DNA of 64,000 nt from Lachnospiraceae bacterium (GTDB lineage Bacteria; Bacillota; Clostridia; Lachnospirales; Lachnospiraceae), in NCBI GenBank assembly GCA_021202635.1, contig JAJQCQ010000023.1, positions 1-64,000 on the forward strand. The letters run 5' to 3'. Made by a program: the position numbers and the translations under genes. Of this stretch, positions 7,289-17,921 are shown in pieces. Numbering within the stretch: the first letter of the stretch is position 1; every line of letters begins with the position of its first letter. Below the pieces are notes generated by a model. That model saw nothing but the letters and a program-made list of their open reading frames with translations, ran no database searches and was not told where the DNA came from.

Positions 7289-8029
7289 TTACAGTTCACG
7301 CCCTTCTTTCTGTTTCCTGTAAATTCGCCAGGAATACAGGAACGGCAGTACAACTGCCACCACAATCGTACCAAATAAAACCGGCATCAGAAGCCCACCC
7401 GGCAAAAAGATCGAAAGCAAAAGTACCAGTCCGTCAATCACCCATACCTTTCCGGCAAAACGGTGCGTCTGGTTCCAGTTTTCTTCATTATTTAATGTCC
7501 AGGAAAGCCGAATCCCAATGGTTCGATTCTGCTTTATTTTCGGGAAGTAATTCCCCAGAAATAAAAACAGCAGTCCCATCATAACCGAGCAAACCGTAAG
7601 TACATGAAACTCTTTTTCCAATGCCGCTGCATAGATCATCCCATTCGTGAACAAAGACACCAGCGGTATAATCCAGAACACCATGCCGAGTACTTTTTTA
7701 TTCTGATCCTTCTGCTTTGCGTCTCCGGCAGTAGCAAACAGGCAGAAAAAATGCATGATCAGCAGAAATACGGGGATTCCAAAAACCGCAAACGCCTTTG
7801 AGCTGAAGCCGTCCGGTGTATTACTGGTGCTCCAGTGCGTCGCCATCTGATCCGGCAGGCGGTTCCACAGAAGAAGCCCCGCCAGAACCGGAAGCAAAAT
7901 CACAATTGAGGATAAAATTACCGTTCGTCTGTTACTCTTAAGCATAACTGATTCCTCCCTTAACTCCTTTAATTTCTTATTATCATGCCATATATCGTTT
8001 TTCATAAAGCTTTTTTTCATCGCGACCAT
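7289..8029 (-). CDS. sdpI: SdpI-family membrane protein (DUF1648 plus SdpI domain)
   Basis: A 246-residue membrane protein with about six hydrophobic helices. The N-terminal DUF1648 part has the motif LPDQMATHWSTSNTPDGFSSK, one residue-block typical of the family. The C-terminal SdpI/YhfL part has NRTIGIRLSWTLNNEENW. In Bacillus subtilis SdpI confers immunity to the SdpC toxin and sequesters the repressor SdpR at the membrane. Here the gene overlaps the upstream ArsR-type repressor by one base (TAATG), the same arrangement. No toxin gene is in the window, so this may be a stand-alone envelope-stress or bacteriocin-immunity pair. Confidence 0.8.
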   Translation of the reverse strand: MVAMKKSFMKNDIWHDNKKLKELREESVMLKSNRRTVILSSIVILLPVLAGLLLWNRLPDQMATHWSTSNTPDGFSSKAFAVFGIPVFLLIMHFFCLFATAGDAKQKDQNKKVLGMVFWIIPLVSLFTNGMIYAAALEKEFHVLTVCSVMMGLLFLFLGNYFPKIKQNRTIGIRLSWTLNNEENWNQTHRFAGKVWVIDGLVLLLSIFLPGGLLMPVLFGTIVVAVVLPFLYSWRIYRKQKEGREL

Positions 8030-8292
8030 TACTCACCCATCAGGTCCGTCATCCACAGCAGCGTCTCCTCCAAAACGGAAGTATTGATCTCATAATAAAT
8101 GAATTTTCCTTCCCGCTTATCCCGAACCAGATCCGCATCCTTCAACACCGAAAGGTGCCTGGAAATAGATGCGGCGGTTACGGGAAAGTGTTCGGTAATC
8201 TCTCCGGCTGACATTCTGCCGCTTTTGAGTAAATTCAGGATTTCACGACGGGTCGGATCCGCGAGAGCCTTTAATGTTTCCTGTAAACCCAA
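8029..8292 (-). CDS. sdpR: SdpR-like ArsR-family transcriptional repressor
   Basis: A winged-helix repressor of about 87 residues: LKALADPTRREILNLLK, then a recognition helix in TAASISRHLSVLKDADLV and the wing DKREGKFIYYEIN. It lacks metal-binding cysteines, like SdpR. Longer starts are possible upstream, but AGGAGG lies 7 nt before the TTG at 8292 and only 1 nt before the ATG at 8298, so TTG (protein beginning GLQETLK) is preferred. A perfect palindrome overlaps the promoter, as expected for autoregulation. It is co-transcribed with sdpI. Confidence 0.8.
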   Translation of the reverse strand: MGLQETLKALADPTRREILNLLKSGRMSAGEITEHFPVTAASISRHLSVLKDADLVRDKREGKFIYYEINTSVLEETLLWMTDLMGE

Positions 8293-8309
8293 TGCCATCC
8301 CTCCTTTAA

Positions 8310-8361
8310 CATTTAACTTAATTGTTAAATGAAAGATACCATATCGTCCCTGCTTTGTCAA
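8310..8361 (-). promoter_or_regulatory. sdpRI promoter and repressor operator
   Basis: Minus-strand TTGACA (8361-8356), a 17-bp spacer and TATCTT (8338-8333) form a consensus-like sigma-A promoter. Directly after the -10 box is a perfect inverted repeat, CATTTAAC-TTAATT-GTTAAATG (8310-8331), well placed to be bound by the ArsR-type repressor it precedes. Confidence 0.75.
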
Positions 8362-8417
8362 TCCATTTTCAAAAAACACTCTGTCCTCCCGCTGGCCGGA
8401 ATATCTGGAAAAACAGG

Positions 8418-8550: not shown

Positions 8551-9258
8551 GTGATTCGTATTGCGATTGCGGAGGATATGGAGCCGGAGCGGCAGCGTCT
8601 GGCCGAATATATCCGTCGATATGAGGAAACACACGATGAGACTTTTCAGGTCTCTTTCTTTCCGGACGGTCTTTCTCTGGTCGAGGAGTACCCGAAGGAC
8701 TGTGACATCCTGTTCCTTGATATTGAAATGAAGCCGATGAATGGGATGGATGCCGCGAAAGCGATCCGGACGGTGGATGAAAATGTGGTCATTATTTTCA
8801 TCACGAACCTGGTGCAGTACGCTCTGGAAGGCTACACCGTAAACGCGCTGAATTTTATCATAAAGCCGGTAAATTACGAGACGTTCGCCGCAGAGGTGAC
8901 CCGTGCGCTTGGATTGATCGTGAAACGCACGCCTCATTTTCTGGCCGTTAAAAACCGCGAAGGCACCATCCTGCTCGATATCCGTGACATTACTTATGTG
9001 GAGACTTCGCTTCATAAAACAGTTATTCATACGCGTACGCGTGAAATCCCGTCCGGTGAGACGATGAATGCCCTGGAGAACAAGCTGGCGGAGTTTCCTT
9101 TTTTCCGCTGCCATACCGCTTATCTGGTCAACCTGAACTACGTGGACCGGTTTCAGGGGTGTGACGTCTGGGTTGCCGGAACACAGCTGGCGATCAGCCG
9201 CCACCGGAGGAAAGAATTTCTGGAAGTACTGGCGGAATATGTGGGAGGATTGTCGTAA
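8551..9258 (+). CDS. LytTR-family response regulator
   Basis: A 235-residue response regulator. The receiver domain (about 1-125) has acidic residues E8/D9, phospho-acceptor D57 in LFLDIEMKPMNG and K103 region IIKPVN. The LytTR DNA-binding domain (about 140-232) includes the YVETSLHKTVIHT strand and the FFRCHTAYLVNL motif. LytTR proteins bind pairs of 9-bp direct repeats 21 bp apart. Exactly such a pair lies upstream of the reductase gene after this operon. The GTG start is preceded by GGAGGAGG. The stop overlaps the histidine kinase start (TAATG). Confidence 0.9.
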   Translation: MIRIAIAEDMEPERQRLAEYIRRYEETHDETFQVSFFPDGLSLVEEYPKDCDILFLDIEMKPMNGMDAAKAIRTVDENVVIIFITNLVQYALEGYTVNALNFIIKPVNYETFAAEVTRALGLIVKRTPHFLAVKNREGTILLDIRDITYVETSLHKTVIHTRTREIPSGETMNALENKLAEFPFFRCHTAYLVNLNYVDRFQGCDVWVAGTQLAISRHRRKEFLEVLAEYVGGLS

Positions 9259-10670
9259 TGAATCAGATTTTCACCTGGATCAAAGTTCTTTTTCCATCCT
9301 TTCTGATGGCGCTGACCGATCAATTAGGCTGTGTATTCTTTTTGAAGTCTTCTTCACGAAACCGTCCTTCTTCTGTTTCGCCATTCCATCGCCCTCGGAA
9401 GCAGAACCCCAGTCTGAAAGCACCGGCACACGGTTTCTTCGCACTCCAAAACTGGAAAGACAGTCTCTTTCTGATTTTCAGTGTTTTTCTGGCTGTGCCG
9501 TTCCAGCGAGGCAGCTACTGGGATCCGGGCACATATGCCGTTGTCGCCATTAAGCTATGCTTCTACTTTCTTTTTATCTGGCTATGGACGCAGAACCGTG
9601 TTCTTGTCTGTATCTATGAAGCAATGGTCTATTTTCTGATCAGTGACTGCCTGCGGACACTGTCTGGTTTTTTCTCTCAGAACCTGTTTCACAATGATGT
9701 CTTTCTGGTCGGTTCTCCTGGCCCTCTGATCGTCGCCAACCTGGTCGAAACAACTTTTCTGTTTCTGACCGTCTGGCTCGTACGGCAGTTTATGGAAAAA
9801 AGCGGCCGTCCAGTGCTACGCCCTGGGCATATCCCGGTATTGGCCGTCTCTCTGCTTCCGTATCTGTTTATCCGCGGCATCACGATCTGGCTGCCGGTAG
9901 CAAATGAAGAGCTCACCGCTGAAACTCCGGTTATGATGCTGATCACGCTTCTTGCTGGCCTGCTGCTTCTGATTGGAAATGTGACCGCGGTTTCCTCTGA
10001 GCGTCATACCGCCGAGCTGCACCAGCTGGAGCAGATGCTTTTTGTCCAGCACGCACAGTATTCGCAGTCAAAGGAAGTGGCCGACCGGGTCAACCGCCAG
10101 TATCATGACCTGAAAAATACCCTTCTTTACATACAAAACTGTACCGATCAGGAACAGATTCGCCAGGAGCTTGGAAAAATGCTGGAGCAGATCCGTCCAT
10201 ATGAAACAGAGCTGAATACCGGCAATCAGGCTGTGGATGTGATTTTGAATCAGAAGCTCGCCCTCTGCCAGGAAAATCACATTCGCTGTGTGCCTTATAT
10301 TGATGGAAGCTTGCTGGATTTCATGGATCCTCTGGATATCTGCACGATCCTCGGGAACGCCCTGGACAACGCCATTGAAGCCTGTCTGAAAATTGCGGAT
10401 GAGCAAAAAAGACAGATACGCATCCGGATATCCCTGAAGAATCAGATGCTGAGCCTGCACGTTGAAAACAGCTGTGAATCACTCCCAACAGAAAAGGACG
10501 GTCAGCTGCTGACGGATAAGCCTGACGCCTCCGCACATGGGTTTGGTATACGCAGTATCCGGCATACGGCGGAAAAATACGGCGGACAGCTCTCCTATCG
10601 GGTCACAGAGGGACAGTTTGTGCTGGATCTGCTGCTGCCGGTTTCTGATGCGAAAGCAACCGCTGTATGA
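9258..10670 (+). CDS. GHKL-family sensor histidine kinase
   Basis: A 470-residue membrane kinase of the AgrC/NatK type. The N-terminal half has about six hydrophobic helices (to about residue 255). A coiled dimerisation helix follows, with the phospho-accepting H283 in YHDLKN and a GHKL ATPase domain with N-box LGNALDNAIEAC and G-box GFGIRS. It should sense an extracellular or membrane signal and phosphorylate the adjacent LytTR regulator. Residues 25-60 form a hydrophilic segment rich in Ser/Arg/Pro, unusual for this family so close to helix 1. The ligand is unknown; the neighbouring exported reductase suggests its substrate or redox state. Confidence 0.85.
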   Translation: MNQIFTWIKVLFPSFLMALTDQLGCVFFLKSSSRNRPSSVSPFHRPRKQNPSLKAPAHGFFALQNWKDSLFLIFSVFLAVPFQRGSYWDPGTYAVVAIKLCFYFLFIWLWTQNRVLVCIYEAMVYFLISDCLRTLSGFFSQNLFHNDVFLVGSPGPLIVANLVETTFLFLTVWLVRQFMEKSGRPVLRPGHIPVLAVSLLPYLFIRGITIWLPVANEELTAETPVMMLITLLAGLLLLIGNVTAVSSERHTAELHQLEQMLFVQHAQYSQSKEVADRVNRQYHDLKNTLLYIQNCTDQEQIRQELGKMLEQIRPYETELNTGNQAVDVILNQKLALCQENHIRCVPYIDGSLLDFMDPLDICTILGNALDNAIEACLKIADEQKRQIRIRISLKNQMLSLHVENSCESLPTEKDGQLLTDKPDASAHGFGIRSIRHTAEKYGGQLSYRVTEGQFVLDLLLPVSDAKATAV

Positions 10671-10737
10671 CCAGTTAGTCGTAGTTTTGTACCAGTTGGT
10701 CGTTAAATTTCTTTTTTATCTTTTTGTCTGTTATAAT
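10670..10737 (+). promoter_or_regulatory. LytTR-type operator and extended -10 promoter for the flavin reductase
   Basis: Two direct repeats, ACCAGTTAG (10670-10678) and ACCAGTTGG (10691-10699), lie exactly 21 bp apart, the geometry of AgrA/LytTR sites. Nine bases after them comes the -35 region, which is T-rich and not consensus. An extended -10, TGTTATAAT, has TATAAT at 10732-10737. This is the expected layout of a promoter activated by the upstream response regulator. The first repeat overlaps the kinase stop codon. Confidence 0.7.
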
Positions 10738-10832
10738 CTTCACACAATTGATCTGAGATTTTCTCCTGCTGATTCCAGACAAAAAACGAGCAGGAAAAAT
10801 CCGATTTATTTTCCAAACAGGAGGATTTTACC

Positions 10833-12950
10833 ATGAAAAAAGAGAAAAACAGTCTTTCCCGGCGCGACTTTATCCGCAGCGCAAGCGCAGGTGCAGCAGC
10901 CCTGGCAGCTTCCGGACTTTTCGGAGGAGTGGTTCACGCAGAAGAAGGCGCAGCGGCAGCTTCCGGCGAAGCGATTTACACACCAGGTACTTATACTGCC
11001 AGTGCGACCGGTATGGGCACTGTCACGGTTACCATAACCTTTGATGAGACCAGCATCACAGATGTAGTGGTTGACGTTTCCAATGAGACCGAAACCATCG
11101 GCCAGCTGTATGGCGAGACGCTTCAGGAAGCGCTCCTCGCGGCACAGTCTGCTGATATTGATGGTGTCAGCGGAGCAACTCTGACTTCAGATGCTGTCAA
11201 GGAAGCGGCAGCGAACTGTATTGCACAGGCGATGGGGGTAGCGGTTGAGTCAGCCGACGAAGCAGATACCGACAGCAGCGATCCGTACACCGGAACCGAT
11301 GAGGAAGGGAATACCGTTTATTATTCCATGCGCCGCAGCTGGGTCGGCGAGGCTCCGACCTTCAGCGAGAGCGACATCGCGGGCGAGTATTCCGCGGACG
11401 TCATTGTCATCGGCGCAAACTATTCGGGCGCGAACTGCTTCCGTATGGCATGCGAACAGGGCGCAACCTGTATCGTCCTGGATTCCCAGTCTGAGGATTC
11501 CTTTGAAGCTTACGGCGGTCAGCTCGGCCATTTCAATTCTCAGTGGCAGGAAGATGTTCTGGGTGTACCGAAGGATTACTTTGACCCGGTTGATTTCATC
11601 GAGAGCTATCAGCTGCAGAGCGCTGGACGTGCGCAGCCGGATCTGATCAGCAAGTGGGCAAAGAGAAATGGGGAACTGGTAGACTGGATGACAGAGCTCT
11701 ATGATGATATCACGGAAATCACCGGTGAAGACACCATCGAGCCTGACAGCGACTACAGCTATAAAAAAGGCTTCTTCATGACCTATCCTGCTGTTATTAA
11801 TCTTGGTTCCGGCAGCATGTCCAGCTCCGGAGAATTCTGCACAAAGACTGTACAGGCCGGCCTGGAGGCAAGCCCGGATTCGCAGGCATTCTATAACATG
11901 ACCGCCAAAGTACTGATCAAGAACGGCGACACCGTCTGCGGCGTGATCGCACAGAGTCTGGAAGACGACCAGTATTACCGTTTCATGGCTAAGAAGGGTG
12001 TCGTGCTGGCGACCGGCGATTTCAGCGCGAATTCTGATATGTACCGTTCTCTGTGTACCGAAGTGCAGGAGTGCAATCCTTACACGGAGCTGACCGGTTC
12101 CGGACGTGACGGCTACGGACACCGCATGGGCATCTGGGCCGGCGGCGTCATGGAGATCGGCCCGAGAGCCGCAATGGGCGGCGCAACCTCTGCGCTTCCA
12201 ATGGGCTTCTTCGGCGCGGCCAGCGGTCTGTGGATCAACAAATATGGCAAGCGTTACTGCAACGAAGCGTTCGGTGTTCCGTTCGTAGCAGGCTGCCAGA
12301 GTGCACGTCAGCCGATTGACAGTTCCATTATCCAGGTATGGGATGAGGGACACTGGAGAGAATTTGCGCAGAATCAGGCACTCGGTCATTTCAATGCTTC
12401 TGATATTTCCGATGCAAAGATGGACGAGTACGCAGCCTCTCTGGAAGAAGTAAAAGCGGCCGGTGCGGAAGGTCTCAACAATGTTTACTGCGCGGATACC
12501 CTGGAGGAGCTGGCTTCTTATCTTGGCTTCGAGGGCGAATATGCAGAGAACTTCGTAAACGCAGTCGAGACCTATGACGCCTATGCAGAAGCAGGTAAGG
12601 ATGAGGATTACGCAAAACCGGCTGATATGATGTTCCGCATCAGCGAGGGACCATTCTACGCAGAAAAGCTTGACCGCAACGCAAACATCGTCCTCGTTAC
12701 CCTGGCCGGTCTCTTCGTAGACGGCAACCAGCAGGTGCTGAATCAGAAGTTCGAGCCGATCCCCGGCCTCTTCGCAACCGGTAACGCGTCCGGCGGCCGT
12801 TTCCCGCTGCAGTATACCGCTCCGATGAACGGCATCAGCATCGGCTTCGCCACCGTATTCGGCGCACTGCTCGGTGAATACCTGGGACAGAGCGCTCCGG
12901 AGGTATCAACCGGCGATTCCGCTACCTCCGCGACGGGAACAATCGATTAA
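10833..12950 (+). CDS. Tat-exported FMN-binding/FAD-dependent reductase (fumarate/urocanate reductase-like)
   Basis: A 705-residue extracellular flavoprotein. A twin-arginine signal, SRRDFIRSAS, ends near AHA-like VVHAEE at about 36. An FMN-binding domain (about 50-130) has the flavinylation motif DGVSGAT, in which T116 would carry covalent FMN added by ApbE. An FAD-binding domain of the flavocytochrome c/fumarate reductase family follows (ADVIVIGANYSGANC at about 188, GRDGYGHRMGIWAGG, and a C-terminal SGGRFPLQYTAPMNG with a possible substrate arginine). Such enzymes pass electrons from membrane flavoproteins to small organic acceptors such as fumarate, urocanate, cinnamates or methacrylate. 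The substrate here is not evident. Its own promoter carries LytTR boxes and its ribosome-binding site is AGGAGG. No apbE or tat genes are in the window. Confidence 0.85.
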   Translation: MKKEKNSLSRRDFIRSASAGAAALAASGLFGGVVHAEEGAAAASGEAIYTPGTYTASATGMGTVTVTITFDETSITDVVVDVSNETETIGQLYGETLQEALLAAQSADIDGVSGATLTSDAVKEAAANCIAQAMGVAVESADEADTDSSDPYTGTDEEGNTVYYSMRRSWVGEAPTFSESDIAGEYSADVIVIGANYSGANCFRMACEQGATCIVLDSQSEDSFEAYGGQLGHFNSQWQEDVLGVPKDYFDPVDFIESYQLQSAGRAQPDLISKWAKRNGELVDWMTELYDDITEITGEDTIEPDSDYSYKKGFFMTYPAVINLGSGSMSSSGEFCTKTVQAGLEASPDSQAFYNMTAKVLIKNGDTVCGVIAQSLEDDQYYRFMAKKGVVLATGDFSANSDMYRSLCTEVQECNPYTELTGSGRDGYGHRMGIWAGGVMEIGPRAAMGGATSALPMGFFGAASGLWINKYGKRYCNEAFGVPFVAGCQSARQPIDSSIIQVWDEGHWREFAQNQALGHFNASDISDAKMDEYAASLEEVKAAGAEGLNNVYCADTLEELASYLGFEGEYAENFVNAVETYDAYAEAGKDEDYAKPADMMFRISEGPFYAEKLDRNANIVLVTLAGLFVDGNQQVLNQKFEPIPGLFATGNASGGRFPLQYTAPMNGISIGFATVFGALLGEYLGQSAPEVSTGDSATSATGTID

Positions 12951-13060: not shown

Positions 13061-13089
13061 GAATACAAATACCATATGGGAAAAGATTG

Positions 13090-14031
13090 ATGGATAAGCG
13101 AAATTTATTACTATACATAGACATTCCATTCTGCCCGGTTCACTGCAAACACTGCGGGAAAATCGCCTGTGCGCCCAGCTCCGATCTGCGGTATGCGTAC
13201 GCACAGGCGCTCCGAAAGGAAATCGCTGCCTCCGCAGACAGCCTCCCGGATTATGAGATTTCCGCCGTCTACATCGGCGGCGGAATCCCGGGGCATATGA
13301 TGGACGAAGAGCTGGGTGAACTGCTGAAAGACCTTTCTTCGTGGTACAATATTGCTCCAGATGCGGAAATCACATTGAAGGTGCATCCCGGCATGGTCAG
13401 TGTCGAGACACTGAATGCCTGCCGCCGTGGCCATGTCACCAGGCTCAGCATGGAATACGTGACGCATAATTCCTTCGAATATGAAATGCTCGGACGTTTT
13501 TTAAGCCCCTCCGCCATGGATGTCACCCATATGATTCTTGGGGGCAGCAGGCTTGACCTGAGCTTTGACATCATCGCCGGGCTTCCCGGACAGACAAGAA
13601 CTTCCCTGCTGGAAAGCATAAAAAAGGTGCTTTCCTATGGAGCGTCTCACCTTTCCCTCTATCCGTTCGTGCTGACGCCCGGAACGGAACTGGCTGAGGA
13701 ATATGCTGCAAAGCAGGGTTCTGCAGTCATCGAGAATCCGCGCAAACGCATTCCAGATCCGGAAGAAGTGGCCGCTTGGCTTGCAGATGTGAAGGATTAC
13801 CTGACATCTCAGGACTTTACAGAATACCTTCCGGGGCGATTCGCCCTTTCCGGGAAAGAATGCCGGTATTTTATGCTTGAATCCGGCGGATGTGAATCTC
13901 TCGCCTTCGGACTCGGCGCAGAAAGCGCTTTCGACGGTGTGCGCTCAAAAAATACGTCCAGTCTGAAAAAATATTTACAATACTCAGACCAGCCGGAGAA
14001 AATCATTTGCCATATGGAGCCTATCCTTTAG
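13090..14031 (+). CDS. Radical SAM protein, coproporphyrinogen III oxidase/HemW-like, C-terminally short
   Basis: About 313 residues. The radical SAM cluster motif is CPVHCKHCG (Cx3Cx2C) inside YIDIPFCPVHCKHCG, the HemN/HemW-type signature. It is followed by the SAM-binding GGG in YIGGGIPG and the family segment DLSFDIIAGLPGQT. It stops at about the point where HemW enters its C-terminal HemN_C domain (family length about 380), so that domain is missing. An ATG at 13090 follows an in-frame TTG at 13087; neither has a strong ribosome-binding site. Location right after the flavin reductase suggests a related role, for example heme or cofactor handling or modification of the reductase substrate, but this is inference. 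Confidence 0.75.
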   Translation: MDKRNLLLYIDIPFCPVHCKHCGKIACAPSSDLRYAYAQALRKEIAASADSLPDYEISAVYIGGGIPGHMMDEELGELLKDLSSWYNIAPDAEITLKVHPGMVSVETLNACRRGHVTRLSMEYVTHNSFEYEMLGRFLSPSAMDVTHMILGGSRLDLSFDIIAGLPGQTRTSLLESIKKVLSYGASHLSLYPFVLTPGTELAEEYAAKQGSAVIENPRKRIPDPEEVAAWLADVKDYLTSQDFTEYLPGRFALSGKECRYFMLESGGCESLAFGLGAESAFDGVRSKNTSSLKKYLQYSDQPEKIICHMEPIL

Positions 14032-14047: not shown

Positions 14048-15007
14048 TTAAAAAAGACTTTCCATCACACTCATGATCCTGTCTATATTCCTTTGGGACA
14101 AATAGGCAGGATTTAATTTATGCTTACTATAATGATATATCGTATTCTGTGTAACACTGATTAGCTGTTGTGTAAAAAAACGTTCCCAGCTTAAATACTC
14201 ACAACTATCTACGTAATCGCACATATGACTCAAAATTGCATCAGGCACAGCTACAATTCCAGATTTTAAAATCATCCACTCAAAGGACTCAGGAGCATAC
14301 AAAGCGATCTTCTTATGATATCTGATATACTCCACAACATCATCCATCTCCGATCCAAACGCAGATCCATCCACTACTGCCAGAACGGTATTTTTATTCT
14401 TATCCAGCTTAACTATAGTATTTAAAACATTTGATTTTCCTTTTGCGGATATACAGCTCATCTGATTATTTCTGGCCACCATATTAAAAAAATCCCATCC
14501 AGAATTAGAGTCTTCTGTCACGATTATGCTATGGCTGTCCTGCTCCGCTACTGACAATTCATGAAATAACGGATATGCCTCATTAAAAACCTGCCGAATA
14601 CCTCCGTACTTATTGCTTTCTCTAAAGCCATATATTTCTTTTACGCTATATGGTAATGCACTTAACTTTTCCCTTGTAACTAATACAAAATAATTAGAAT
14701 TATGATTTATTAACCGGGCGAATTCATCCGTTCGCACAAAACCATTTCCTTCATCGATAAAAATAATGGCATCAGTTAACTCAAGAATGCGTTTTTTCCA
14801 TTCCATCCCTTCCACGACCACACAGTTTCTATCACAATTAAGTACGATACCACTGTCTGCACCAAACGTATTATAATCACGAATCATGTTCACAAGCTGC
14901 GTCTTTCCTGTCGCACTGTTTCCCCGGATAACCGTGATATTTCTTTGTATAGTCATTTCGTATTTCAGCTTATTTGAATAAACCTCGATAATATATTTCC
15001 CTTTCAT
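14048..15007 (-). CDS. P-loop ATPase partner of DUF4869 protein
   Basis: About 319 residues. An N-terminal beta-rich start leads to Walker A GNSATGKT (residues 29-36). A Walker B-like strand, DAIIFIDEGNG, lies at about 80, followed by a sensor-like FVLVTRE. The remaining two thirds match no family I can name. The preferred ATG at 15007 overlaps the stop of the upstream DUF4869 gene as ATGA, so the two are translationally coupled. There are no membrane segments. I recall DUF4869 genes being followed by such an ATPase in many Firmicutes, which suggests a conserved two-gene module. The function is unknown; defence, stress response or regulated proteolysis are all possible. Confidence 0.7.
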   Translation of the reverse strand: MKGKYIIEVYSNKLKYEMTIQRNITVIRGNSATGKTQLVNMIRDYNTFGADSGIVLNCDRNCVVVEGMEWKKRILELTDAIIFIDEGNGFVRTDEFARLINHNSNYFVLVTREKLSALPYSVKEIYGFRESNKYGGIRQVFNEAYPLFHELSVAEQDSHSIIVTEDSNSGWDFFNMVARNNQMSCISAKGKSNVLNTIVKLDKNKNTVLAVVDGSAFGSEMDDVVEYIRYHKKIALYAPESFEWMILKSGIVAVPDAILSHMCDYVDSCEYLSWERFFTQQLISVTQNTIYHYSKHKLNPAYLSQRNIDRIMSVMESLF

Positions 15008-15456
15008 ACAACCGTCTCCTGCAGGCAATTATGGGCAACTATAACAAGATCAGCCATTGAGGTAACTATTTGATCATTATTTAGAACATGTATCTGAAAC
15101 ATCCCTTCCCCGAAATCCATAATATGTCCTAACCGAATCGTTAGATCTTTCTTCTCTGCAATCTTAAGAATCCATTTTGCACAGTTATCCCCACAGGTAG
15201 ACGCATTAAAAATTCTCGTATCATCATTTATCATAAGAAGCAATGTTTTCGTTCCACCTGAAAGGTCCTCCGGAGGAATCATCCCAAGCACTCTGCTTTG
15301 GATGCAGCGTTCCCCCAGTACAACCGAACGATCTACATCAAGAATGATTTCTTTCGCTAAATCGTCCACAATCCAGGAAGGATCATACGTGTTTCTAAAA
15401 TACACTTCCGTATTATTGATTACACCCTCCATTTCTCCGTAATAAATATGCAGCAT
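15004..15456 (-). CDS. DUF4869 family protein
   Basis: A 150-residue protein beginning MLHIYYGEMEG, which with FNASTCGDNCAKWIL and LTIRLGHIMDFG is the pattern I associate with DUF4869. No catalytic motif is recognisable, and the two conserved cysteines in TCGDNC are worth noting. An upstream GTG would add five residues but would bury the GGAGG ribosome-binding site, which lies 8 nt before the ATG at 15456, so that ATG is chosen. It overlaps the downstream P-loop ATPase by 4 bp. Function unknown. Confidence 0.75.
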   Translation of the reverse strand: MLHIYYGEMEGVINNTEVYFRNTYDPSWIVDDLAKEIILDVDRSVVLGERCIQSRVLGMIPPEDLSGGTKTLLLMINDDTRIFNASTCGDNCAKWILKIAEKKDLTIRLGHIMDFGEGMFQIHVLNNDQIVTSMADLVIVAHNCLQETVV

Positions 15457-15605
15457 CCTATTGTCCTCCACTGTTGGATTCTATTACATCTTTGCAGAAG
15501 TACCTCTTCTTTGCTATTTTTCTGCTCAGTTAGAATAACACAAATAGAAAATCTTTACAATCGCCTGGTCTAAAAGAATACAGCCATAACACAGTTACAT
15601 CATCT

Positions 15606-17921
15606 TTACTCTTCTACATACTCATACGTAATTTCCGCCGCTGTCAGATTTTCATTCCCCGATTTTACTGTGATCTCTTCCCACTCTTCTTCTGTCCCGG
15701 CATAATAGACCACCTCCAGGGCATCGCAGCCGGTGAATGCGTAAAGCCCTACTTTTGTCACAGTATCCGGAAGGAAAATCCTGATCAACGCGGCACAGCC
15801 GGAAAACGTATAATTGCTGATGTCCGTCAGACCATCCGGCAGTGCAATGACTGTCAATGCCGTGCAATTTGCGAATGCTTCCTTTCCAATACTTATCACA
15901 CTATCCGGCAGTGCAATCTCCGCAAGAGCGACACACCCCTTAAAGGCGTTATCGCCAATAGCGGTTAAAGCATCCGACAACGTCACCTCAGCCAAAGCGG
16001 TACAATTCTCAAACGCATATTTTCCAATACTCGTCACGTTATCCGGCAATTCTATACTCTTAAGAGCAGTGCATCCGTAAAATGCGGAATCCCCAATACT
16101 CGTCACACTGTCCGGAAGATCGATGGCCGTCAGAGCCGTACAGCCGGAAAAGGTATTGCCGCTGATGGACGTGATGCTGTCCGGAATCGTTACTTCCGTC
16201 AGCCCCTCACAGCTGCCAAATGCATAGCTGCCAATACTCGTCACGCTGTCCGGGATCGTCACCGAGGTCAGGGCGTTACATCCGTAAAAAGCGTATTTTT
16301 CAATGGCAGTCACACTCTCTGAAAACGTGATATCCGTAAGACCGGTACATTTTTGAAATGCAGAATCACTGATGCTGCTCAAGCTGTCAGGGAAGGTCAC
16401 CGCCGACAGACTTGTGCAGGAATCAAAGGCATTTTTACCAAGGCTGGTCAGGGTATCCGGGAAGGAAACATTGACCAGTGCCGTACACTTTTCAAAGGCG
16501 TTCGCGCTGATGCTCAGCACACCGTCCGGTATCATAAGACTTGTCAGGCTGGTACAGTTCGAAAAAGCATACATCCCAATGCTGGTCACTCCTTCCGAGA
16601 TCGTCACACTGCCAAGACCCGTACAGTTTTTAAAGGTGCTGCTGCTGATCGTCGTCACCGTGCCAGGAATCGTAATATCGCTAAGCGCCTCACATTCAGA
16701 AAAAGCAAACATGCCAATTTCCGTCACACCCTCGCCAAGATCAATCTCAGTCAGACTCTCACAGTCATAAAAGGCGTAGTTTCCGATCTCCGTCACACTG
16801 TCCGGAAGCGTGACCTGTTCGAGGCTATCACAGTCAGCAAAGGCATAATCTCCCAGGGCCGTCACACTCTCCGGAATCTCCACATCTCTTAACGTCGCGC
16901 AGGAGTAAAACGCATATTCTCCAATCTCTGTTGTGCTTTCTGGGATGCTGATACTTTCCAGGCTGTCACAGTCAGAAAATACATACGCGCCGATCTCTGT
17001 GATTCCGGCATTCAATGTCACATCGCTAAGTCCCGTGCAGCCGCAGAACGCATAGTCGCCAATCTCTGTTACGCTCTCCGGAATGCTGATTGTCGTCAGG
17101 GATTCACACCCGTAAAACGTATAGGTCCCAATCTCCGTCACGACGTCGGACACGGTAAATTTCTCCAGGCTGCTGCAATTGTAAAACTGATAATCGCCGA
17201 CAGTCGTTATCGCATCCGGAAAGGATAAGGCTGTCAGGCTCTCACACCCATAGAACGCATAATCGCCCAGACTTGTCACCGCATCTGGAATACTGATTTC
17301 CGTCAATGATTCGCATCCGTAAAACACATACGCCCCAATCTCCGTCACGGTGTCCGGAATGCTGATCTCCGTCAGATTCTCACAACCATAAAATGCATAA
17401 TCCTCAATATTCGTCACACCTGAATCTATCATGACAGTAACAACAGTATCGCAGTTTTTATACCATGGGACATCGTCTTCATCCGAAAATTCTGTCATCG
17501 CGCCCGTGCCGCTGATCGTCAGTGTACCGTCATTGTACAGCTCCCATGCCAGATCATCCCCGCAGGTACCACTGTCCACAAGCGCCAGGACAAATTCTGT
17601 CTCTGTCTCGGTTTCCGTCTCCGTCTCATAGACCAGCTCTTCATCCTCTTCTGAATCCGAAGAGTCACCCCAGCCACCCATATTTCCAAAGTCTCCAAAA
17701 TTCATACCGCCCGATGAATCTCCACTGCTGTCGTCAGACCAGCCACTCCCACCAAAATTTCCGAAATCCATACCGCCCATTTCACCAGCATAAACGGTTG
17801 ATGGGGGTACGAATACCGCCAACGCAGTCGTTGAAAGCATAATTCCCGAAAACAATAATACACGAGCAGAAACGAGAGGACGCACCTTACCTGTCCGAAA
17901 ATATTTCTGAATCCATTCCAT
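15606..17921 (-). CDS. Secreted BspA-type leucine-rich repeat protein
   Basis: A 771-residue exported surface protein. The signal peptide spans about residues 1-45 (hydrophobic VLLFSGIMLSTTALAVFV, cleavage near VYAGE). A Gly/Asp/Ser-rich low-complexity region with GGMDFGNFG and GGMNFGDFG repeats follows, then a TETETETETE tract at about 96-108. Next is one Ig-like or capping segment (SGTCGDDLAWELYNDGTLTISG), then 25 tandem 23-residue LRR_5 repeats of the pattern VTEIGxYAFYGCxSLTxISIPDS. It ends TYEYVEE without LPXTG or a membrane anchor, so it is either released or held by another mechanism. BspA-like proteins bind host matrix proteins and partner bacteria. The only other secreted ORF of similar style is the transglutaminase-like protein at 47366. 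Confidence 0.9.
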   Translation of the reverse strand: MEWIQKYFRTGKVRPLVSARVLLFSGIMLSTTALAVFVPPSTVYAGEMGGMDFGNFGGSGWSDDSSGDSSGGMNFGDFGNMGGWGDSSDSEEDEELVYETETETETETEFVLALVDSGTCGDDLAWELYNDGTLTISGTGAMTEFSDEDDVPWYKNCDTVVTVMIDSGVTNIEDYAFYGCENLTEISIPDTVTEIGAYVFYGCESLTEISIPDAVTSLGDYAFYGCESLTALSFPDAITTVGDYQFYNCSSLEKFTVSDVVTEIGTYTFYGCESLTTISIPESVTEIGDYAFCGCTGLSDVTLNAGITEIGAYVFSDCDSLESISIPESTTEIGEYAFYSCATLRDVEIPESVTALGDYAFADCDSLEQVTLPDSVTEIGNYAFYDCESLTEIDLGEGVTEIGMFAFSECEALSDITIPGTVTTISSSTFKNCTGLGSVTISEGVTSIGMYAFSNCTSLTSLMIPDGVLSISANAFEKCTALVNVSFPDTLTSLGKNAFDSCTSLSAVTFPDSLSSISDSAFQKCTGLTDITFSESVTAIEKYAFYGCNALTSVTIPDSVTSIGSYAFGSCEGLTEVTIPDSITSISGNTFSGCTALTAIDLPDSVTSIGDSAFYGCTALKSIELPDNVTSIGKYAFENCTALAEVTLSDALTAIGDNAFKGCVALAEIALPDSVISIGKEAFANCTALTVIALPDGLTDISNYTFSGCAALIRIFLPDTVTKVGLYAFTGCDALEVVYYAGTEEEWEEITVKSGNENLTAAEITYEYVEE

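Follow-up and report, generated by a model that had tools for sequence, protein, structure and literature searches.

The window, a stretch of 64,000 nucleotides from a Lachnospiraceae genome, carries on its forward strand and in this coding order a LytTR response regulator, a GHKL sensor histidine kinase and an exported flavoprotein (8551-12950). The regulator (8551-9258) begins with a GTG codon and is 235 aa long, combining a receiver domain (phospho-acceptor Asp57) with a LytTR DNA-binding domain, and the end of its gene shares one base (9258) with the start of the kinase gene (9258-10670). The kinase is a protein of 470 aa with about 6-7 transmembrane helices, a histidine (H283) in the motif YHDLKN and an N-box asparagine (N367). 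The 705-aa reductase (10833-12950) joins FMN_bind and FAD_binding_2 domains behind a predicted Tat export signal, and a HutW/HemN-like radical-SAM protein (13087-14031, forward strand; 314 aa) with an intact CX3CX2C motif follows. Gene order differs between related loci: the regulator-kinase-reductase order is that of the window, the regulator and reductase are divergent in four others (L057, L067, L093 and L143), and in Faecalibacterium prausnitzii APC923/51-1 (L094) a reductase-radical-SAM pair faces a kinase-regulator pair. F. prausnitzii is an abundant human commensal. Elsewhere in the window, on the reverse strand, we observed an SdpI/DUF1648 membrane protein beside an ArsR-type regulator, an SdpRI-like pair (7289-8379), a DUF4869 protein overlapping a 326-aa protein with a P-loop-like N-terminus and no Pfam match (14048-15471), and a long leucine-rich-repeat (BspA-like) secreted protein (15606-17921).

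Both regulatory proteins have their expected motifs intact. The regulator matches PF00072 at 52 bits and PF04397 at 70 bits, the LytTR domain scoring above its family cut-off, and D57 together with the LytTR residues R186, C187, H188 and N194 is invariant in 14 relatives. The kinase matches PF14501 at 97 bits and has an H-box with His283, an N-box, a G-box and 6-7 hydrophobic helices; H283, D284 and N367 are invariant in 16 relatives. The two proteins thus show what defines a LytTR/GHKL two-component system, namely a receiver Asp with a LytTR domain and a polytopic kinase with an H-box and a GHKL ATPase, and the DNA shows the corresponding site, 9-bp direct repeats with a gap of about 12 bp just before a -35 element. 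Assignment to the LytTR regulatory system (LRS) class, in which a LytTR regulator that has no receiver is combined with a membrane inhibitor that has no kinase domain, was rejected, as receiver and kinase domains are both present.

The putative LytTR boxes, both on the forward strand, are box 1, ACCAGTTAGTCGT (10670-10682; core 9-mer ACCAGTTAG, 10670-10678), and box 2, ACCAGTTGGTCGT (10691-10703; core 9-mer ACCAGTTGG, 10691-10699). Their cores lie 21 bp apart from start to start with a 12-bp gap, and the repeat unit can be extended to 13 bp (ACCAGTTRGTCGT), of which 12/13 positions are identical. The pair of cores ends 10 bp before the poor -35 (TCTTTT, 10710-10715) and 32 bp before the -10 of a predicted forward-strand promoter (10710-10737), in which a 16-bp spacer leads to an extended -10, TG-T-TATAAT, in TGTTATAAT (10729-10737). 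In published LytTR sites (PMC6193735), two 9-bp repeats flank a gap of 12 bp and usually lie 10 bp ahead of the -35, and the 9-12-9 arrangement in the window, with 10 bp to the -35, has the same geometry. The original prediction of two LytTR boxes 21 bp apart, at the proper distance from an extended -10, is therefore borne out by the coordinates and by the published geometry. The boxes directly follow the regulator genes, with box 1 overlapping the kinase stop codon at its final base. Further downstream, ahead of the reductase start, a stable hairpin is predicted in the 5' leader of the reductase mRNA (10750-10806, forward strand; fold z −1.9 to −2.7 in three orthologues), and it is retained in orthologues across indels.

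Single 9-mers of this kind are commonplace (2 in the window vs 1.3 expected), which lends some support to the view that the repeats arose by chance, that the reductase is constitutive or globally regulated, and that the two-component system controls something else. However, the full pair behaves differently: the 13-bp pair at this spacing occurs once in the 3.98-Mb genome. We searched for the pattern CA[AG]TT-N16-CA[AG]TT within 330 bp upstream of reductase genes in 80 loci from named genomes, plus loci from related genomes, and found the 21-bp pair upstream of 13/19 LytTR-linked reductase genes compared to 0/64 unlinked ones (Fisher 5e−11, a value inflated by relatedness, since near-copies are frequent among the loci). 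When each cluster was counted once, the pair was present in 7/13 linked vs 0/35 unlinked clusters at 90% identity (Fisher p = 2e−5), in 6/9 vs 0/14 at 70% (p = 8e−4) and in 5/8 vs 0/12 at 50% (p = 4e−3). The strict pair is absent from 6/19 linked loci, most of which have degenerate repeats at 21 bp. Box 2 lies 40 ± 1 from the -10 in 17/20 loci, and the combined box-plus-promoter score is 15-18 in most linked loci as compared to no more than 14 in 2000 shuffles. When 60 genomes were scanned blind for both CCAGTT cores plus the -10, five matches were obtained, all at loci of this kind; four of these precede LytTR-linked reductases and the fifth lies directly 3' of an orthologous kinase at a contig end, while the reversed control pattern gave 0 matches.

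Taken together, the conservation among distant relatives, which is the strong line of evidence, the fixed distance to the -10 and the blind scan make it very likely that this putative box pair is a functional operator. Conservation at fixed geometry and the genome scan led us to reject a chance origin of the boxes. Given that the fixed-geometry pair is conserved only at LytTR-linked loci and has few other genomic copies, a reductase outside the control of its neighboring system is very improbable. The wiring of the regulator to the reductase, a part of the original prediction that stands, is well supported by these comparative data. In a reductase tree, linkage to the LytTR system underwent at least six changes, and in an average of 3.4 of 6 independent pairs the boxes changed with it; no pair was opposing and p was about 0.125, a test that does not reach significance because the independent pairs are too few. 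As a separate observation, a roe-deer rumen genome encodes a reductase 72% identical to that of the window with a box pair at 20 bp spacing (L086:1500-1640), on a short contig that carries no LytTR gene.

We also searched for further sites in the genome. The shorter pair CCAGTT-N15-CCAGTT has 4 copies, including this locus and a LytTR-linked paralogue. The remaining two were rejected as evidence of a wider regulon: they lie in coding-looking or unrelated sequence with no LytTR-linked reductase there. No box pair was found 5' of the regulator gene (8551), so feedback on the regulator is not visible in this arrangement.

What the kinase senses can be approached from its divergence. Outside of close orthologues, related kinases are 17-32% identical to that of the window (one at 59%), compared to 36-42% for the regulators (one at 67%), and such faster divergence is as expected if each kinase senses its own ligand. 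A Foldseek search with an AF2 model of the kinase returned kinase cores only, AgrC among them, and no relative of the sensor domain. The match to the AgrC kinase region, along with the architecture of AgrC/AgrA and VirS/VirR, in which a GHKL kinase with 6-7 transmembrane helices is partnered with a LytTR regulator, would be consistent with a quorum sensor for an autoinducing peptide, in which case cell density instead of the acceptor would induce the reductase. However, no AgrB/AgrD-like gene is common to the neighborhoods among ORFs of at least 90 aa, a size above that of short propeptides, and the contrast in identity fits own ligands, although different peptides would produce it as well. 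We consider a peptide signal improbable. Rather, given the parallel with the Eggerthella LuxR regulators described below, substrate sensing is the likeliest reading, in which the kinase would respond to the reductase's own acceptor.

The reductase has a twin-arginine signal (S9-R-R-D-F), an FMN_bind domain (62-130) with the flavinylation motif SGAT (113-116) and an FAD_binding_2 domain (189-656) according to Pfam. An export signal, FMN_bind with a [S/T]GA[S/T] motif and FAD_binding_2 are the features of the flavinylated fumarate-reductase-like class, and all are present here. The original prediction's "flavin reductase" therefore holds insofar as the protein is predicted to be a Tat-exported, flavinylatable reductase, but the name is imprecise since flavin is the cofactor of this FMN_bind and FAD_binding_2 protein. 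Its AlphaFold2 model (mean pLDDT 81) retrieved flavocytochrome c3 (Fcc3), UrdA and 3-ketosteroid dehydrogenases in Foldseek, with Fcc3 and UrdA as the best structural matches. In these two enzymes an arginine (R402 in Fcc3, R411 in UrdA) protonates the substrate, and its loss abolishes UrdA activity (PMC10882135). The corresponding position in the window reductase is Val482, Arg occurs there in 0/46 aligned sequences, and the R544/R560 position is likewise not conserved in the sequence alignment. We therefore did not assign the protein to fumarate/urocanate reductases proper, and the acceptors first proposed (urocanate, cinnamates, fumarate and acrylates) are disfavored because the essential arginine is missing.

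Tyr661 and Gly667 are invariant in the 46 aligned sequences and recall the Tyr487/Gly491 pair used by KstD1 (PMC5348764). The spacing is 6 here vs 4 in KstD1 and the likeness is one of motif, so that an equivalence of the two pairs is suggestive only; the comparison covered this pair out of a catalytic set that also includes Tyr119 and Tyr318. The best NCBIfam match of the catalytic part is the vinyl phenol reductase VprA (NF053717, 112.8 bits), far under the 600-bit cut-off for membership in that family. The missing Arg, the invariant Tyr661 and Gly667 and the VprA match might, tentatively, point away from a simple carboxylic acid and toward an activated C=C bond as found in enones, vinylphenols and the like, which would be a better first guess than fumarate, urocanate, cinnamate or acrylate. 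It is also conceivable, and implied by the original list of acceptors, that the wiring holds and the enzyme reduces carboxylates in the conventional manner of fumarate, urocanate or cinnamate reductases, with its catalytic residue at another position, for example Arg656; this would alter the acceptor class only. The fold and the Fcc3 and UrdA matches speak for this, as does R656, found in 32/46 sequences, which could bind a carboxylate. However, it has to accommodate a Val where Fcc3 and UrdA have an essential residue (PMC10882135) and where all 46 sequences lack Arg, as well as the poorly conserved R544/R560 position, and we regard it as a serious but unlikely candidate.

The original prediction had described the cassette as self-contained, which it is not, because ApbE, Rnf, a multi-FMN carrier and the Tat translocase are encoded elsewhere in the genome and the radical-SAM partner lies just past 12950. 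The genome has a single ApbE. An Rnf cluster (L063, G000:C96:14000-32000) encodes RnfC, an RnfD-FMN_bind fusion, two RnfA/E-type subunits, an RnfB-like ferredoxin protein, a protein with seven FMN_bind domains, TatA, TatC and another FAD_binding_2 protein with a Tat signal. Multi-flavinylated proteins linked to Rnf have been proposed to feed extracytosolic acceptors (PMC8238504), and the content of this cluster agrees with that proposal. Electrons from such a chain may reach the window reductase.

Clustering of the neighboring genes (830 ORFs) showed that only the reductase, regulator, kinase and radical-SAM genes are widely common to LytTR-linked loci. A radical-SAM gene lies near 11/17 LytTR-linked compared to 3/63 unlinked reductases, a contrast inflated by relatedness. 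Its position varies, being co-directional, convergent or beyond the kinase, so that more than shared inheritance as an operon lies behind the linkage. The protein is closest to HutW/ChuW and HemN, with a score of 133.5 bits against the NCBIfam model TIGR04107. Membership among the heme-degrading HutW/ChuW proteins was rejected, as the score is far below the 400-bit cut-off; CX3CX2C is present and the C-terminus is shorter. We also observed that, relative to the L064-type orthologue, the copies in the window and in L065 lack about 22 aa with the frame kept.

We propose that the module probably encodes a signal- or substrate-inducible exported reductase under LytTR/GHKL control. The polytopic kinase would sense a signal that is extracellular or carried in the membrane, the simplest candidate being the acceptor of the reductase itself, and, judging from the intact motifs, would phosphorylate Asp57 of the regulator. 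A regulator dimer would then bind the direct repeats at 10670 and 10691, where conservation points to an operator, and recruit RNA polymerase to the promoter, whose -10 is extended and whose -35 is poor. The reductase would leave the cell via Tat with FAD on board, the single ApbE would flavinylate its FMN_bind domain at Thr116, and electrons would come from the Rnf/multi-FMN chain suggested by the genome content. The enzyme might then reduce an organic acceptor, for instance an activated C=C of the enone or vinylphenol type, and the HutW-like radical-SAM enzyme would usually accompany it. The reduction may serve detoxification in place of respiration, a point that we counted against this explanation.

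Gut Clostridia have many exported flavin-dependent reductases that are orphan as to substrate. A conserved operator marks those that answer to a neighboring sensor, and a promoter-kinase-regulator reporter screened against compound libraries offers a route to both signal and substrate. As a broader and rather doubtful hypothesis, such modules could be widespread respiratory units of Clostridia. Each would combine a sensor of the LytTR/GHKL type with a flavinylated reductase that is Arg-less (Tyr-based) and with a HutW-like radical-SAM protein, which together would use a specific dietary or host acceptor (enone, vinylphenol, steroid or tetrapyrrole), the kinase being matched to that acceptor. 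If true, reporters built on the box promoters would show what many orphan gut reductases act on. Reporter-type screening of this kind was suggested earlier for the LuxR proteins of Eggerthella (PMC9734109). The absent catalytic Arg also warns that the fold by itself is no basis for calling these enzymes fumarate or urocanate reductases.

Among known systems, the promoter resembles those of AgrA, VirR and the S. mutans LRS (PMC4227749, PMC6193735) in its 9-bp direct repeats with a 12-bp gap and, as in LytTR promoters, about 10 bp to the -35, a poor -35 and an extended -10. However, those systems target virulence, competence or bacteriocin genes whereas the target here is an exported reductase, and, unlike in those promoters, the window arrangement has no repeats before the regulator gene. 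The enzyme is like UrdA and Listeria FrdA (PMC8238504, PMC10882135) in its export, its FMN_bind and FAD_binding_2 domains, its [S/T]GA[S/T] motif and the genomic ApbE, and unlike them in lacking the catalytic Arg and in having a neighboring LytTR system. It has the same fold as KstD1 (4c3x; PMC5348764) and an invariant C-terminal Tyr and Gly resembling Tyr487/Gly491, but differs in their spacing and in being, by prediction, exported and flavinylated. VprA is LysR-regulated (PMC10295242), unlike the window reductase, which is paired with a LytTR two-component system. Among the papers that we searched, none was found on LytTR control of flavin-dependent reductases. A close parallel is in Eggerthella lenta, where LuxR regulators with 12 transmembrane helices are paired with reductases and dehydroxylases. 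Those beside dehydroxylases answer to the substrate of the neighboring enzyme, and numerous others adjoin flavin-dependent enzymes (PMC9734109). In both cases a membrane-embedded sensor with divergent sensor parts lies beside a metabolic enzyme, and the E. lenta LuxRs that were tested activate the adjoining gene when the substrate of its enzyme is present (PMC9734109). E. lenta, one of the Coriobacteriia, uses a one-component LuxR, whereas the Clostridial locus has a GHKL kinase, a LytTR regulator and a predicted direct-repeat operator. Substrate-sensing regulator/reductase pairs are thus already known from Eggerthella, and what is new here is a two-component regulatory variant in Clostridia, a module also present in Faecalibacterium prausnitzii.
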